From contig NZ_ADGX01000076.1 of NCBI RefSeq assembly GCF_000177675.1, forward strand, positions 1 through 42,065: a DNA stretch of 42,065 bases, read 5' to 3'. The stretch's first letter is position 1, and the number at the start of each line of letters is the position of its first letter. The DNA is from Parafrankia sp. EUN1f. GTDB taxonomy: Bacteria > Actinomycetota > Actinomycetes > Frankiales > Frankiaceae. A program made the position numbers and the translations under genes. Below, piece by piece: positions 31,803 to 39,754 of this stretch. The notes under the pieces were generated by a model. That model saw only the letters and a list, made by a program, of their open reading frames with translations, was not told the DNA's origin and searched no databases.

Positions 31803-31914
31803 CCGCCGGCCAGGTGTGAGCACCCAGGCGGCTACCCGGGCGACCAGCCAGTCGGCCAGCCGGGCGACTACGGCGACGACACGGCGACGATTACGGCGAA
31901 GCGAGGGATGCGCA

Positions 31915-32169
31915 GTGGCACGCATCGTGGTCAGGTACTGGGCGGCGGCCCGGGAGGCGGCCGGTGTCGAGCAGGACGAGGTGGACGCGCCGACGCTCGC
32001 CGTGGCGCTGGATGACGTCGCGCGCCTCCGCGGTACGGCCCTCGCCACGGTGTTGGCCCGCTGTGCCTTCCTGCTCGACGAGGTGCCGGTCGGTCGACGC
32101 GACCCGCAGGAGGTCGACCTGCGAGAAGGGTCGGTGGTGGAGGTGCTGCCCCCGTTCGCCGGGGGGTGA
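31915..32169 (+). CDS. MoaD/ThiS-family sulfur carrier protein
   Basis: An 84-residue ubiquitin-like protein (ARIVVRYWAAAREAAGV at the start, EGSVVEVLPPFAGG at the end). The C-terminal Gly-Gly is the tail that is adenylated and thiocarboxylated. MoaD donates sulfur to molybdopterin; relatives feed other sulfur pathways. GTG 31915 follows GAGGGA. Its place before thioredoxin and thiosulfate sulfurtransferase genes fits a sulfur-transfer role. It could also serve the Mo-enzyme pair at 1082-3040, though they are 29 kb apart. Confidence 0.87.
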   Translation: MARIVVRYWAAAREAAGVEQDEVDAPTLAVALDDVARLRGTALATVLARCAFLLDEVPVGRRDPQEVDLREGSVVEVLPPFAGG

Positions 32170-34163: not shown

Positions 34164-34568
34164 ATGGACCCCGACCCGGACCCCGCCGTGGATCTGGTCG
34201 CGGAGCTCGGCGCGCTCGGCCAGGTGCCCGGTGAGGTCGCGACGCTGCTGCAGTTCTCGACGGCCTTCTGCGCGCCCTGCCGGGCCGCTCGGCGCCAGCT
34301 GGCGGACGTCGCGGCGCTCGTGCCCGGCGTGCGGCATGTGGAGATCGACGCGGAGTCCCACCTGGAGCTGGTGCGGCGTCTGGGCGTGCGCAGCACCCCG
34401 ACGGTGGTGATCCTCGACGGATCGGGCACCGAGGTGCGTCGGGTGACCGGTGCCCCGCCGACGAAGGCGGCGGTGATCGCGACCCTGGCGTCGTTGGTCG
34501 AGGTCGCACCCGGAGATCGGGAGCCGGGCTCAGATGGTGCCCCGGTAGATCTTTGGGGTAAGGGTTAA
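34164..34568 (+). CDS. Thioredoxin-family protein
   Basis: A 134-residue thioredoxin fold with active site C36-A-P-C39 (FSTAFCAPCRAARR) and the cis-proline block RSTPTVVILDG. The CAPC pair differs from the CGPC of standard thioredoxins and suggests a dedicated partner. It lies directly upstream of the sulfurtransferase leader and 17 bases after the DUF2993 gene, with GGAGGG before its ATG. It probably reduces the sulfurtransferase or its products. ThiX-like proteins occupy this position in mycobacteria (recall). Confidence 0.87.
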   Translation: MDPDPDPAVDLVAELGALGQVPGEVATLLQFSTAFCAPCRAARRQLADVAALVPGVRHVEIDAESHLELVRRLGVRSTPTVVILDGSGTEVRRVTGAPPTKAAVIATLASLVEVAPGDREPGSDGAPVDLWGKG

Positions 34569-34595
34569 CACAGAAGTGACATTCGCTGCTACCGT
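34565..34595 (+). promoter_or_regulatory. Promoter of the cysteine leader / sulfurtransferase operon
   Basis: TTAACA (34565-34570) and TACCGT (34590-34595), 19 bases apart, precede the leader-peptide ATG by 10 bases. Transcription should begin within a few bases of that ATG, giving a leaderless or nearly leaderless upstream reading frame. Confidence 0.5.
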
Positions 34596-34605
34596 GACAC
34601 GAACC

Positions 34606-34683
34606 ATGTGCAGCGTCCTGCTTGTGAAGCGCCGCGCGGTCGACCTGTGCCGCGTGGGCAGCTGCTTGTGTTGCGGTTCCTGA
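34606..34683 (+). CDS. Cysteine-rich leader peptide upstream of the thiosulfate sulfurtransferase gene
   Basis: A 25-residue frame ends RRAVDLCRVGSCLCCGS. It has five cysteines (positions 2, 15, 20, 22 and 23), three of them within four codons near the stop. It belongs to the actinobacterial RR-VDL-R-x-S leader-peptide type found before sulfur genes. In mycobacteria a polycysteine upstream frame is reported to attenuate the homologous sulfurtransferase/DUF1416 operon: when Cys-tRNA is scarce the ribosome stalls and the downstream genes open. There is no Shine-Dalgarno, and a promoter places the ATG near the transcript start. About 200 bases follow before the sulfurtransferase ATG, room for a regulatory fold. 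Confidence 0.82.
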   Translation: MCSVLLVKRRAVDLCRVGSCLCCGS

Positions 34684-34880
34684 CAGCGCGTTGACCTAGT
34701 CCGCGCCCGGGTTCCTTGGGGATACCGAGCGAGCCTCGACCTCGTACCTCCGCCTGCTCCGCTCCGTCTCCGTCCCCTGCTTCGCCTCGGGCGCGGCATG
34801 CCGCAACGCCACCTCCGGGCACCGTCCCGGATGCATACCTGTCTCGTCCCCTGTTCCGCAACCGCGAAAGGAACGCGCGC

Positions 34881-35714
34881 ATGAGCCGCGAGAACGCGCT
34901 GGTCAACGCGACCTGGGCAGAAGAGCACGCCAGCGACCCCAAGGTCGTGCTCGTGGAGGTCGACGAGGACGTCTCGGCCTACGACAAGGGGCACATTCGC
35001 GGCGCCGTCCGGCTCGACTGGAAGTCCGAGCTGCAGGACCCGATCATCCGTGACTTCGTGAACAAGGAGCAGTTCGAGAAGCTCCTGTCCGAGAAGGGCA
35101 TCGCGAACGACGACACCGTGGTGCTGTACGGCGGCAACAACAACTGGTTCGCCGCCTACGCCTACTGGTACTTCGTCCTGTACGGCCACGCTGACGTGCG
35201 TCTGCTCGACGGTGGCCGCAAGAAGTGGGAGCTCGACGGCCGCGAGTTGACCGCCGAGGTCACGCCGCGTCCGGCCACCAGCTACACCGCCTCCGAGGCG
35301 CGCACCGACATCCGGGCCTTCCGCGACGAGGTCATCTCCGCGATCGGCTCGAAGAACCTGGTGGACGTCCGCTCGCCCGACGAGTTCTCCGGCCGCCTGC
35401 TCGCTCCGGCGCACCTGCCGCAGGAGCAGTCGCAGCGGGCTGGGCACGTGCCGACGGCCAAGAACGTCCCGTGGGCGAGGACCGCGAACGAGGACGGCAC
35501 CTTCCGGTCGAACGACGAGCTGACGGCGCTCTACGCCGAGGCCGGTGTCGACCTGACCAACGACACCATCGCCTACTGCCGGATCGGTGAGCGTTCCGCG
35601 CACACCTGGTTCGCCCTGCACGAGCTGCTGGGTCTCGCGAACGTGAAGAACTACGACGGCTCGTGGACCGAGTACGGCTCGCTCGTGGGCGTGCCGATCG
35701 AGAAGGGCGCCTGA
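34881..35714 (+). CDS. cysA: Thiosulfate sulfurtransferase (rhodanese, CysA/SseA type)
   Basis: A 277-residue protein with two rhodanese domains. The catalytic loop CRIGERSAHTW has the active cysteine at residue 233; the N-terminal domain lacks it, as usual. Fully typical blocks are YDKGHIRGAVRLDWKSELQ, LYGGNNNWFAAYAYW and LVDVRSPDEFSG. It transfers sulfane sulfur from thiosulfate to thiols or cyanide. ATG 34881 follows GAAAGGAA; the open frame upstream to 34716 has no homology. It is regulated by the cysteine leader and forms an operon with DUF1416 two bases after its stop. The name follows mycobacterial usage and is not the sulfate ABC transporter gene. Confidence 0.93.
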   Translation: MSRENALVNATWAEEHASDPKVVLVEVDEDVSAYDKGHIRGAVRLDWKSELQDPIIRDFVNKEQFEKLLSEKGIANDDTVVLYGGNNNWFAAYAYWYFVLYGHADVRLLDGGRKKWELDGRELTAEVTPRPATSYTASEARTDIRAFRDEVISAIGSKNLVDVRSPDEFSGRLLAPAHLPQEQSQRAGHVPTAKNVPWARTANEDGTFRSNDELTALYAEAGVDLTNDTIAYCRIGERSAHTWFALHELLGLANVKNYDGSWTEYGSLVGVPIEKGA

Positions 35715-35716
35715 TC

Positions 35717-36016
35717 ATGTGCGGTGCGACCAGTGGTGGACCATCGGTGGAAGGAATTGACGTGGCCAAGGAAACCGTGATCCAGGGAGTCGTGGTCTCC
35801 GGCGGTGAGCCGGTTTCGACTGGTTACGCCCGCCTGCTCGACTCCGGTGGCGACTTCACCGCCGAGGTGCCACTTTCGGCGACCGGCCAGTTTCGCTTCT
35901 TCGCGCGTCCCGGCGAGTGGACGGTCCGCGCCCTGGTTCCGGGCGCGACCGGCGAGCGCAAGGTCGTCGCCCGCCAGGGTGAGCCGGTCGACACCCAGGT
36001 TGACGTCACGGTCTGA
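35717..36016 (+). CDS. DUF1416 (SseC-like) protein
   Basis: A 99-residue protein (MCGATSGGPSVEGID, VIQGVVVSGGEPVSTGYARL, FARPGEWTVRALVPG), a small beta-sandwich of the DUF1416 family. It always accompanies the rhodanese gene in actinobacteria and is named sseC in mycobacteria. Its exact activity is unknown. An N-terminal MCG motif puts a cysteine at position 2. It begins two bases after the sulfurtransferase stop and ends before a strong terminator. Confidence 0.9.
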   Translation: MCGATSGGPSVEGIDVAKETVIQGVVVSGGEPVSTGYARLLDSGGDFTAEVPLSATGQFRFFARPGEWTVRALVPGATGERKVVARQGEPVDTQVDVTV

Positions 36017-36089: not shown

Positions 36090-36136
36090 GCGGCCGGGTT
36101 CCGGGAGCACGCTCCCCGGAAGCCCGGCCGCTTTTT
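36090..36136 (+). terminator. Intrinsic terminator of the sulfurtransferase operon
   Basis: A long GC stem (arms starting GCGGCCGGG and ending CCCGGCCGC, one bulge) with a two-base loop at ACG/C is followed directly by TTTTT. It is followed by a (CGTG)n simple repeat to about 36190. Confidence 0.92.
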
Positions 36137-36249
36137 CGTGCGTGCGTGCGTGGGTGCGTGGGTGTGTGCGTGTGGGCGTGGGTGCCTGAGTGGGCGATCG
36201 CGGGCCGGGTCGACTTGCCGTGGTCCCGTCGCCAGGGGTAAAAATATAA

Positions 36250-37217: not shown

Positions 37218-39299
37218 ATGTCTGTCTCCCGGGTTTCCGAGGCCATCGGGCACCATATTCCCGAGCAGGTTGTCGATGCTTCCGCCGCGGTGCGTGACCA
37301 GGCCGAACGCGATGTTCGCGATGTTCGCGGCGGCGCGGACCGGCTGGCCGGCACGCTGCGCCGGGCCACCCGGCACCTGCTGTCCCTGCAGGACAGCACC
37401 GGTTGGTGGAAGTTCGACCTGGAAAGCAACACCACCATGGATGCCGAGGACCTGCTGCTGCGCGATTTCCTCGGAATTCGTACCGAATCCGTCACCGCGG
37501 CCTCCGCCAAGTTCATTCGTTCCCGTCAGCTGGCGGACGGCTCCTGGCCGCAGTACTTCGGTGGGCCTGGTGAACTGTCCATCACAGTCGAGTCCTACAT
37601 AGCGCTTCGGCTGGCCGGTGACGAACTGTCGGCCCCACATATGGAACGTGCTGCGGCCTGGATCCGGCGGAACGGCGGAGTTCCCGCCACCCGGGTGTTC
37701 ACCAGAATCTGGATGGCTCTTTTCGGCTGGTGGCGCTGGGAGGATCTGCCCGTTCTGCCACCCGAGATCATGCTGCTGCCTGATCAGGCCCCGCTGAGCA
37801 TCTACTCGTTCGGATCCTGGGCTCGGCAGACCATTGTTCCCCTCACCATCGTCTTCGCGCTCCGTCCGGTCCGTCCGGCACCTTTCGGCCTGGACGAGCT
37901 GTCGGTCGACGATCCGGATGACGCCGGTTCCACGACGTCCGGGGGCATCGCTCGGCTGCGCGGCCGGGTGCCGCTCGGGTGGAAGCAGTTCTTCCGATGG
38001 GTCGATGCCGGGCTGCACCGCTATCACCATCACCCGATCGGACCGCTGCGGCGGCATGCGATGCGTACGGCGGAACGCTGGATCATCGCGCGGCAGGAGG
38101 CCGACGGCTGCTTCGGCGGGATCCAGCCGCCGGCCGTGTACTCGATCATCGCGCTGCGGCTGCTCGGCTACGACCTTGCGCATCCGGTGCTGAAGGCGGC
38201 GCTGGAAGCTCTCGACGACTACTCGGTGACCCTCCCCGACGGGGCGCGGATGATCGAGGCCTCGCAGTCACCCGTCTGGGACACGGCGCTCGCGGTGAAC
38301 GCGATCGTCGAGGCGGGCGACGTCATCGGCATCGAGCCGGACGACCCGGCGCTGCTGCGGGCTGCCGACTGGCTGCTCGGCCAGGAGATCCGTGATCGCA
38401 GCGGCGACTGGCAGGTGAACCACCCGGGCCTGCCCGGCGGCGGCTGGGCGTTCGAGTTCGAGAACGACACCTATCCCGACACCGACGACACCGCCGAGGT
38501 GCTCCTCGCTCTGCGGCACGTCCGTCATCCCGCGCCGGAGAAGATCGAATCCGCGACCGATCGGACCGTGACCTGGCTGCTCGGCCTGCAGTCCAGGGAC
38601 GGTGGATGGGGCGCCTACGATTCGGACAACACCAGCACGCTTGTCTACAAGATTCCGTTCGGTGACTTCGGCGCCCTCACCGATCCGCCGTCTGCGGACG
38701 TCACCGCCCACGTTGTCGAGGCTCTCGTCGACGCCGGGCTGACCGAGGATCCCCGGACGCAGCGCGGGGTGTCCTGGCTGCTGGACCATCAGGAGTCGGA
38801 CGGTTCGTGGTTCGGCCGATGGGGCGTCAACCATGTCTACGGCACCGGATCCGTCCTGCCTGCGCTGGCCGCCGCAGGGCTGGCGCCGAGCCACCCGGCC
38901 ATCGGCGGTGGCGTCGCCTGGCTGCTGTCCCGCCAGAACTCCGACGGTGGGTGGGGTGAGGACCTGCGTTCCTACAGCGATCCGCGGTGGATCGGCCGGG
39001 GCGTGTCCACAGCGTCGCAGACGGCCTGGGGGATGCTCGGGCTGCTGGCGGGAGAGCAAGGGCCCGACGTGGCGGTGGCGCTCGCACGGGCCGCGGACTG
39101 GCTTGCCGACCAGCAGCGTCCGGACGGGAACTGGGATGAGGACCAGTTCACAGGAACCGGCTTTCCGGGGGACTTCTACCTCAACTACAACGGGTATCGC
39201 CTGATCTGGCCGGTTCTGGCCCTCGGCCGTTACGGCCACTCCCTGCGGACGTCGCCCCCGCCGACAGCCGCGGACCCGAAGCCCCGGCCCGGCCACTAG
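37218..39299 (+). CDS. shc: Squalene-hopene cyclase
   Basis: A 693-residue class II triterpene cyclase. The catalytic DxDDTA motif is D421-T-D-D-T-A, and at least six QW repeats are visible (QDSTGWW, QEADGCFGG, QSRDGGWGAYD, QESDGSWFGRWG, QNSDGGWGED, QRPDGNWDED). It cyclises squalene to hopene and diplopterol at the inner membrane face. In Frankia, hopanoids are abundant in vesicle envelopes (established knowledge). ATG 37218 follows AAGGA. HpnH (5955), which uses the hopene product, is 30 kb away. No squalene synthesis genes are in the window. Confidence 0.95.
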   Translation: MSVSRVSEAIGHHIPEQVVDASAAVRDQAERDVRDVRGGADRLAGTLRRATRHLLSLQDSTGWWKFDLESNTTMDAEDLLLRDFLGIRTESVTAASAKFIRSRQLADGSWPQYFGGPGELSITVESYIALRLAGDELSAPHMERAAAWIRRNGGVPATRVFTRIWMALFGWWRWEDLPVLPPEIMLLPDQAPLSIYSFGSWARQTIVPLTIVFALRPVRPAPFGLDELSVDDPDDAGSTTSGGIARLRGRVPLGWKQFFRWVDAGLHRYHHHPIGPLRRHAMRTAERWIIARQEADGCFGGIQPPAVYSIIALRLLGYDLAHPVLKAALEALDDYSVTLPDGARMIEASQSPVWDTALAVNAIVEAGDVIGIEPDDPALLRAADWLLGQEIRDRSGDWQVNHPGLPGGGWAFEFENDTYPDTDDTAEVLLALRHVRHPAPEKIESATDRTVTWLLGLQSRDGGWGAYDSDNTSTLVYKIPFGDFGALTDPPSADVTAHVVEALVDAGLTEDPRTQRGVSWLLDHQESDGSWFGRWGVNHVYGTGSVLPALAAAGLAPSHPAIGGGVAWLLSRQNSDGGWGEDLRSYSDPRWIGRGVSTASQTAWGMLGLLAGEQGPDVAVALARAADWLADQQRPDGNWDEDQFTGTGFPGDFYLNYNGYRLIWPVLALGRYGHSLRTSPPPTAADPKPRPGH

Positions 39300-39324
39300 C
39301 CCGAGCCTGGCGCGTCGATCGACT

Positions 39325-39428
39325 AGCTCGGCATGTCCGGTCAGCTCGGCATGTCCGGTCAGCTCGGCATGTCCGGTCAGCTCGGCATGTCCGGTCAGCT
39401 CGGCATATCCGGTCAGCTCGGCATGTCA
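39325..39428. repeat. 18-bp minisatellite after squalene-hopene cyclase
   Basis: Five copies of AGCTCGGCATGTCCGGTC (one with a single change) and a partial sixth are followed by degenerate GGCTCGGCGTTGTCGG units to about 39510. Confidence 0.93.
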
Positions 39429-39502
39429 GTCGGCTCGGCGTTGTCGGGGGCTGGCTCGGCGTTGTCGGCCGGCTCGGCGTGTCAGCTAGGTCGGCGCGTC
39501 GG

Positions 39503-39754
39503 CTAGGTCGGCGCGTCCCGAGGGGCGGGCAGGTCGCGAGGGTGCGCGGTAGTCCGCGGCGGACCATCGAACGGGATGCTGGTGGGGACCGCGAAGGCCA
39601 TCGGGCCCACGGTGAAGTGGCGCAGGTCGTTATCGGTGGCGAAGGTCGCCGCGGCGCTGCGATCCGGGAACGGTGCGACCACCCGACGGACCGTATGTCG
39701 GCTCGCCTCCTCGAACTGCACCACGGCGAAGAGCATCTCGGACTCCGGCATCAT
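39503..39754 (-). CDS. Small protein of unknown function
   Basis: About 83 residues (MMPESEMLFAVVQFEEASR, then ATFATDNDLRHFTVGPMAFAVP). The central part is credible as a small alpha/beta protein; the C-terminus is Pro/Arg-rich and runs toward the minisatellite. The start is uncertain (ATG 39772, 39754, 39751 or 39736) and no ribosome-binding site stands out. No family is recognised. Confidence 0.5.
   Translation of the reverse strand: MMPESEMLFAVVQFEEASRHTVRRVVAPFPDRSAAATFATDNDLRHFTVGPMAFAVPTSIPFDGPPRTTAHPRDLPAPRDAPT

Follow-up and report, generated by a model that had tools for sequence, protein, structure and literature searches.

The leader upstream of cysA in Parafrankia sp. EUN1f

Parafrankia sp. 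EUN1f carries a short frame rich in Cys codons upstream of the sulfurtransferase gene cysA, which raises the question of whether this frame acts as a cysteine-sensing leader and, if so, which of its features would do the sensing. We examined the locus in a stretch of 42,065 nucleotides (the window), one of the 396 contigs (number 321) that make up a genome of 9,352,740 bases.

Read directly from the window sequence, the leader ORF (34606..34683, + strand) encodes the 25-residue peptide MCSVLLVKRRAVDLCRVGSCLCCGS followed by TGA; the ORF list places it inside a longer frame opened by GTG. Its Cys residues occupy codons 2, 15, 20, 22 and 23, three of them (20, 22 and 23) within the last six codons, as an earlier note on this DNA had described. 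Codons 9-16 (34630..34653, + strand) spell the core RRAVDLCR, the sole match in this genome to a degenerate pattern of the core. The hexamer TACCGT (34590..34595, + strand) resembles a -10 element and ends 10 nt 5' of the leader ATG, a near-leaderless arrangement. Further upstream, the promoter element GTTAAC (34564..34569, + strand) may represent the -35 region, and TTAACAC or GTAACAC is found here in most of the Frankiaceae loci displayed. The promoter that the earlier note had placed next to the frame finds a counterpart in the TACCGT hexamer, but a generic sigma-70 scan of 34300-35000 reported none.

The leader stop codon is separated by 197 nt from the start of cysA (34881..35714, + strand), close to the 200 bases given before. 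A family search assigned cysA to the rhodanese-family sulfurtransferases (277 residues, PF00581) and the following gene (35717..36016, + strand) to the DUF1416 proteins (PF07210), which bears out the gene content of the proposed sulfurtransferase-DUF1416 operon; we take the DUF1416 protein to be SseC-like. The Shine-Dalgarno (SD) sequence of cysA, GAAAGGAA, lies at 34866..34873 (+ strand). On its 5' side, the leader is neighbored by LmeA-like and thioredoxin-like genes. By eye, we also noted a small Gly-Gly-ended frame resembling a MoaD/ThiS-type sulfur carrier upstream of LmeA (31891-32169), a hairpin-like sequence with a T-run and a subsequent GT-rich low-complexity stretch after the DUF1416 gene (36100-36190), and a frame on the minus strand that encodes a CRADRT peptide repeat (39181-39567), just downstream of a large ORF resembling squalene-hopene cyclase.

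All six genomes of the genus that were searched contain cysA at 91-100% identity, and the leader precedes it in 6/6 of them (5/6 in a stricter search). The Cys codons, whose loss from related strains would have spoken against the earlier proposal, are conserved within the genus. The closest named cysA loci among the matches listed belong to Frankia (86-88% identity).

The spacer between leader and cysA

In three of the loci closely compared (L005, L006 and L007), an intact DUF4395 gene lies between the leader and cysA, the L006 copy matching PF14340 at 2.1e-45. An intact copy is absent from the window (L001), L003 and L004, the last of which retains a DUF4395-type SD with a 91-codon frame behind it. 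Local alignment of the window spacer to L006 identified positions 34782..34878 (+ strand) as the remnant of a lost DUF4395 gene, corresponding to its 3' end (score 49, against a maximum of 33 in 200 shuffles). This match takes up the 3' half of the spacer, which is therefore in part a relic and not a purpose-built RNA. The alignment indicates that the window lineage has lost DUF4395, and the putative attenuator now faces cysA.

The RNA fold that the earlier note had considered for 34684-34880 fared accordingly: besides the relic in its 3' half, the region holds neither an intrinsic terminator nor an Rfam match. No hairpin followed by a U-run was found in 34300-35000, which speaks against an intrinsic-terminator attenuator of the trp type; such attenuators share with this locus a leader peptide containing codons of the relevant amino acid but differ in that terminator. 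Nor is there support for a known Rfam riboswitch or leader RNA, as no covariance model came near any gathering score in 34400-35000.

Conservation of the leader across the class

We assembled 186 actinomycete cysA loci, 80 from named organisms and 106 others, of which 176 have distinct upstream sequences. They were chosen among the better cysA matches (at most 30 loci per search, the best 80 of 493 confirmed, and 60 stretches picked mainly for genus spread), so distant cysA genes are under-sampled; 28/197 class genomes gave no cysA match at E 1e-60. A leader was defined as a short ORF that contains R-[RLM]-x-[VI]-[DG] and, about nine codons past the D/G, a Cys. By this definition, a leader precedes cysA in 184/186 loci (79/80 from named organisms, 105/106 others), while the same scan returned 0/186 on the reverse strands and 0/558 in mononucleotide shuffles. 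This confirmed that the leader ORF is real and that comparable leaders occur more often than by chance. Of the two exceptions, L105 has no leader, and the frame of L179, matched by our first regular expression, exceeds the length limit. That expression had matched 155/186 loci, and 30 of its 31 misses proved to be variants (D-H-C, D-N-C, D-F-G, D-L-L and others). Named carriers include Frankia, an Acidothermus MAG, Streptomyces, Geodermatophilus, Actinomadura, Nonomuraea, Nocardiopsis, Mycolicibacterium, Amycolatopsis, Saccharopolyspora, Lentzea, Williamsia, Kribbella and Mumia. Among 15 further loci, in part AT-rich or with a distant cysA, 10 have a leader, including a looser variant in L233; none was found in L230, L231, L232, L234 and L237, the last with only 362 nt upstream.

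As a guard against circularity, we also searched without the motif, for ORFs of 15-40 codons that start 6-7 nt after TANNNT and have a Cys among their final eight codons. This gave 145 candidates in 145/186 loci, every one of them (145/145) carrying the motif, and no candidates on the reverse strands of the 186 loci. An initial requirement of three clustered Cys had been too strict, yielding a candidate in only 29/186 loci.

The promoter position is conserved as well. TANNNT lies 5-10 nt 5' of an in-frame ATG or GTG in 182/184 leaders. For quantitative comparisons, we deduplicated the set: 144/186 loci passed motif and gene assignment; 136 of these were retained, and discarding similar loci left 103, the second gene being assigned as DUF4395 by ORF length except in L006. 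In these, TANNNT precedes an in-frame ATG/GTG by 5-10 nt in 101/103, compared with 1/103 in a control displaced by 60 nt. The distance from hexamer to start is 6-7 nt in 76/103 loci and 10 nt in the window.

Conserved peptide core and a single UGU codon

Some positions were preset by the searches: V, D/G, L/F and the first Cys of the motif (Cys0) in the 103-locus set, in which the two Arg places were also restricted, and, for the 184 loci, R, V/I, D/G and a Cys close to +7. The UGU codon, L-9, A-4, R+1 and the result of the motif-free search were not preset. P values are optimistic, given that the loci share ancestry.

Over pairs of related loci in the deduplicated set, the fraction of codon differences that are synonymous reaches 1.0 each at R-6 and R-5 and 0.98 at L-9, and lies at 0.82-0.88 at A-4, R+1, V+2 and L+6, as against 0.12-0.29 for codons -14 to -10. 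The mostly synonymous differences in the core indicate that the peptide is under selection, and conservation of the core at the RNA level was ruled out by the synonymous variation.

The second element is a Cys codon at position +7, nine codons past the Asp, which in the window is codon 22 (TGT, 34669..34671, + strand), the proposed sensing codon. A Cys is found here in 103/103 loci, encoded by TGT in 101/103; a second deduplication gave TGT in 137/140. Among the 184 leaders, the codon is TGT in 180, TGC in 2 (L080, L104) and non-Cys in 2 (L017, L114). Cys0 is encoded by TGC in 97/103 loci and is not universal, being Cys in 160/184. The Cys codons of cysA itself are TGC in 103/103, and those of DUF4395 are TGT in 25/117. 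In the candidate arrest peptide, residues conserved with synonymous change lie at a fixed distance from the candidate stall codon. In L017 and L114 (Frankia sp. R82), a short insertion separates VVDL from CRVHSCLCC, which makes them a natural test of spacing.

Counted from the motif onward, leaders differ in their number of Cys codons: one in 13 leaders, two in 77, three in 61 and four or more in 30, with three leaders uncounted. With one to four or more Cys among 184 leaders, the poly-Cys leader is one form among many. These comparisons indicate that the Cys run is lineage-specific and that the conserved core is RRAVD (with minor variants R-R-x-V/I-D) together with one UGU.

Proposed mechanism and alternatives

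Since the motif and one Cys codon are kept before nearly every cysA examined, the leader probably works as a ribosome-stalling cysteine sensor. We consider it likely that it is a cis-acting leader-peptide attenuator, in which RRAVD and UGU would bring about stalling and the output would be given by SD sequestration or Rho. Transcription would begin a few bases from the leader ATG, and ribosomes would load at the 5' end. With plentiful Cys-tRNA, they would translate past the UGU at codon 22 and dissociate at the stop codon. Pairing of the vacated leader tail with the SD that follows it (that of DUF4395 in many relatives, that of cysA in the window), action of Rho on the C-rich spacer left untranslated, or both, would then hold expression of the sulfurtransferase operon low. 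When Cys-tRNA is short, the ribosome would wait at the UGU with KRRAVDLCRV in the exit tunnel, covering the tail and keeping it off the SD (or keeping Rho off the RNA), and the operon would be switched on. The conserved peptide probably strengthens the pause so that a single Cys codon suffices.

For the output step, duplex energies singled out the leader tail (34661..34681, + strand), which is complementary to the SD and start codon of cysA, as a putative anti-SD. The 24-mer 34664-34687 pairs with this SD and start codon at -25.3 kcal/mol, and 9/1042 control 24-mers are at least as stable; with the SD alone, the tail reaches -13.8, as do 22/1042 controls. The minimum-energy fold computed from the leader's last 24 nt onward includes the tail-SD helix. 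When the whole leader is folded, two segments compete for the cysA SD, the tail with a pairing probability of about 0.4 and a part of the leader further upstream with about 0.55; masking the tail leaves the SD partly paired in a predicted local hairpin.

In the 56 deduplicated loci where DUF4395 comes next, the SD of this gene finds its strongest pairing in the 16-nt segment at the leader stop (mean -12.3 kcal/mol, compared with -7.8 for shuffled tails and -7.4 kcal/mol for the SD of cysA as control); swapping partners between DUF4395 loci still gives -10.8, so this complementarity is largely that of a generic anti-SD. Masking the tail raises the predicted accessibility of the DUF4395 SD from 0.208 to 0.358 in these 56 loci. 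A scan with the extended duplex of SD plus start codon is less sharp than the SD-only scan, with a peak of -16.3 at the stop versus -15.6 to -15.8 elsewhere in the leader. In the 47 loci of the window type, where cysA comes next, tail-SD pairing is weak on average and masking has no significant effect (0.266 to 0.281).

The window organism may instead dispense with SD sequestration, leader translation exposing or hiding a C-rich spacer under the control of Rho only, a reading that is possible if somewhat improbable. The excess of C over G in the spacers is 0.186 in cysA-next loci and 0.112 in DUF4395-next loci, above the upstream controls (0.017 and -0.009), which are largely coding, and a high C content of 5' UTRs may have other causes. 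In the window, a C-rich, G-poor stretch of 60 nt (34730..34789, + strand), a possible Rho loading site, is near the extreme, its C-G excess being reached by a fraction of 0.0002 of the + strand 60-mers sampled every 5 nt. Such C-rich spacers would suit Rho, which has been proposed for cys leaders as a weak prediction (Seliverstov 2005, PMC1262725).

A plain codon-supply attenuator, which would depend on the Cys codons alone, the peptide being conserved incidentally or for the sake of RNA structure, seems unlikely to us. Two Mycolicibacterium leaders have eight Cys codons from the motif on, and UGU is the slower, wobble-read Cys codon, which would fit. However, the core is kept although some leaders have a single Cys between motif and stop, and it differs between loci mostly by synonymous changes, so neither the RNA sequence nor the Cys codons explain it.

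By analogy with TnaC, the nascent RRAVD could instead arrest the ribosome by sensing free cysteine or another sulfur metabolite, independently of tRNA charging. The geometry from motif to stop is fixed, the stop following Cys0 after 10 intervening codons in 70/103 loci, and with the UGU in the A site the Asp would lie 8 residues from the P-site residue, the same spacing as D16-P24 of TnaC (PMC10941005), though one such agreement could arise by chance. The ligand model would also imply induction by excess cysteine, opposite in sign to the starvation-type attenuator described for mycobacteria, and we regard such ligand sensing as improbable. A trans-acting microprotein, for example a CysA partner, would accord with the conservation at the peptide level and the constant linkage to cysA, but it is very unlikely, as the distance from core to stop is kept in leaders that range between 22 and 36 residues in length, and at +7 the codon and not only the residue is conserved.

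Relation to known leader peptides

The stalling attenuator that we favor has its closest known counterpart in mycobacteria, where a short ORF with a Cys cluster precedes cysA2, is conserved within the group and shows ribosome occupancy in M. smegmatis (Shell 2015, PMC4633059). Papers citing Canestrari 2020 (doi 10.1111/mmi.14498) describe cysteine-dependent attenuation in M. smegmatis, crediting regulation of the downstream genes to contiguous Cys codons, and one of them calls it 'translation attenuation'. The ORF before cysA2 shares with the window leader its place upstream of a cysA2-type operon, a start that in the window may be leaderless, and Cys codons near the stop, and the Mycolicibacterium leaders L158, L167 and L172 carry LTKRRAVDLCRVAG with a poly-Cys tail, KRRAVDLCRV being common to them and the window leader. 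The window has only CLCC and no DUF4395. Whereas the mycobacterial ORF is marked by poly-Cys, the feature conserved class-wide is the RRAVD core with one UGU. Judged by these alignments, the window ORF is homologous to the Cys-rich leaderless ORF before mycobacterial cysA2 and a relative of that leader, whose poly-Cys form appears as a special case. The match to the mycobacterial system that the earlier note had drawn thus holds for the leader peptide and the genes it precedes, but not for the Cys run as the conserved element.

A broader proposal, which we make tentatively and with somewhat less than even confidence, is that RRAVDxxR...LC(UGU) is a class-wide actinomycete cysteine-dependent arrest peptide, in which the nascent chain itself would stall the ribosome at a single Cys codon decoded by wobble, and from which the mycobacterial poly-Cys ORF would be derived.

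Leaders with Cys runs were predicted for cys operons of Mycobacterium and P. acnes and for cbs of B. longum (Seliverstov 2005, PMC1262725). Like the present leader, they have Cys codons near the stop and no terminator hairpin, and Rho was suggested; they differ in being defined by Cys runs, and the words 'sulfurtransferase', 'cysA' and 'rhodanese' do not occur in the main text of that study. TnaC of E. coli (PMC10941005) is also a short leader with conserved residues at a fixed distance from the stall site, and its output is Rho-coupled, as may be the case here. It arrests on excess Trp, however, and shows no visible sequence relation to the present leader, for which arrest is a proposal. A reannotation of S. 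lividans gives eight leader peptides, and none of those compared has an RRAVD-type sequence. A literature search for the motif strings, which covered Canestrari 2020 through citing papers, gave no match, and one combining the topic with Frankia, judged by its listing, returned nothing on cysteine leader peptides in Frankia.

If the conserved unit is indeed the nascent peptide with one UGU, the cys leaders lacking a terminator, a gap since Seliverstov 2005, would become testable, and the alternatives of codon supply, nascent chain or both, and of an anti-SD at the stop codon or Rho, would now be separable. The window lineage would then offer a natural experiment, in which the first regulated gene, DUF4395, has apparently been lost and the attenuator faces cysA.

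Genome-wide linkage of the core

We scanned 197 class genomes with a degenerate DNA pattern of RR[AVTI][VIM]D[LF]CR. It occurs once per genome in 95/197 of them (3/197 when read backwards), and 90/95 matches lie 102-776 nt upstream of cysA on the cysA strand. Outside the class, the pattern was found in 1/181 genomes, within a long frame.

Among the remaining five matches, one is followed by DUF4395 and a cysA-like frame, and another falls inside a long frame by chance. The other three form one family, with MFTKRRVIDFCRVNTSAC before a frame that, by eye, is rhodanese-like with a hydrophobic N-terminus. The family is AT-rich in appearance, four sister loci having a GC content of 0.44-0.49, and the +7 codon in these genomes is TGC, unlike in the other genomes. 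In L226, L227 and L228, the MFTKRRVIDFCRVNTSAC leader lies at about 1071-1354 on the reverse strand; by eye, the N-terminus of the rhodanese-like frame is signal-like, and a membrane protein resembling a YeeE-type sulfur transporter is encoded alongside.
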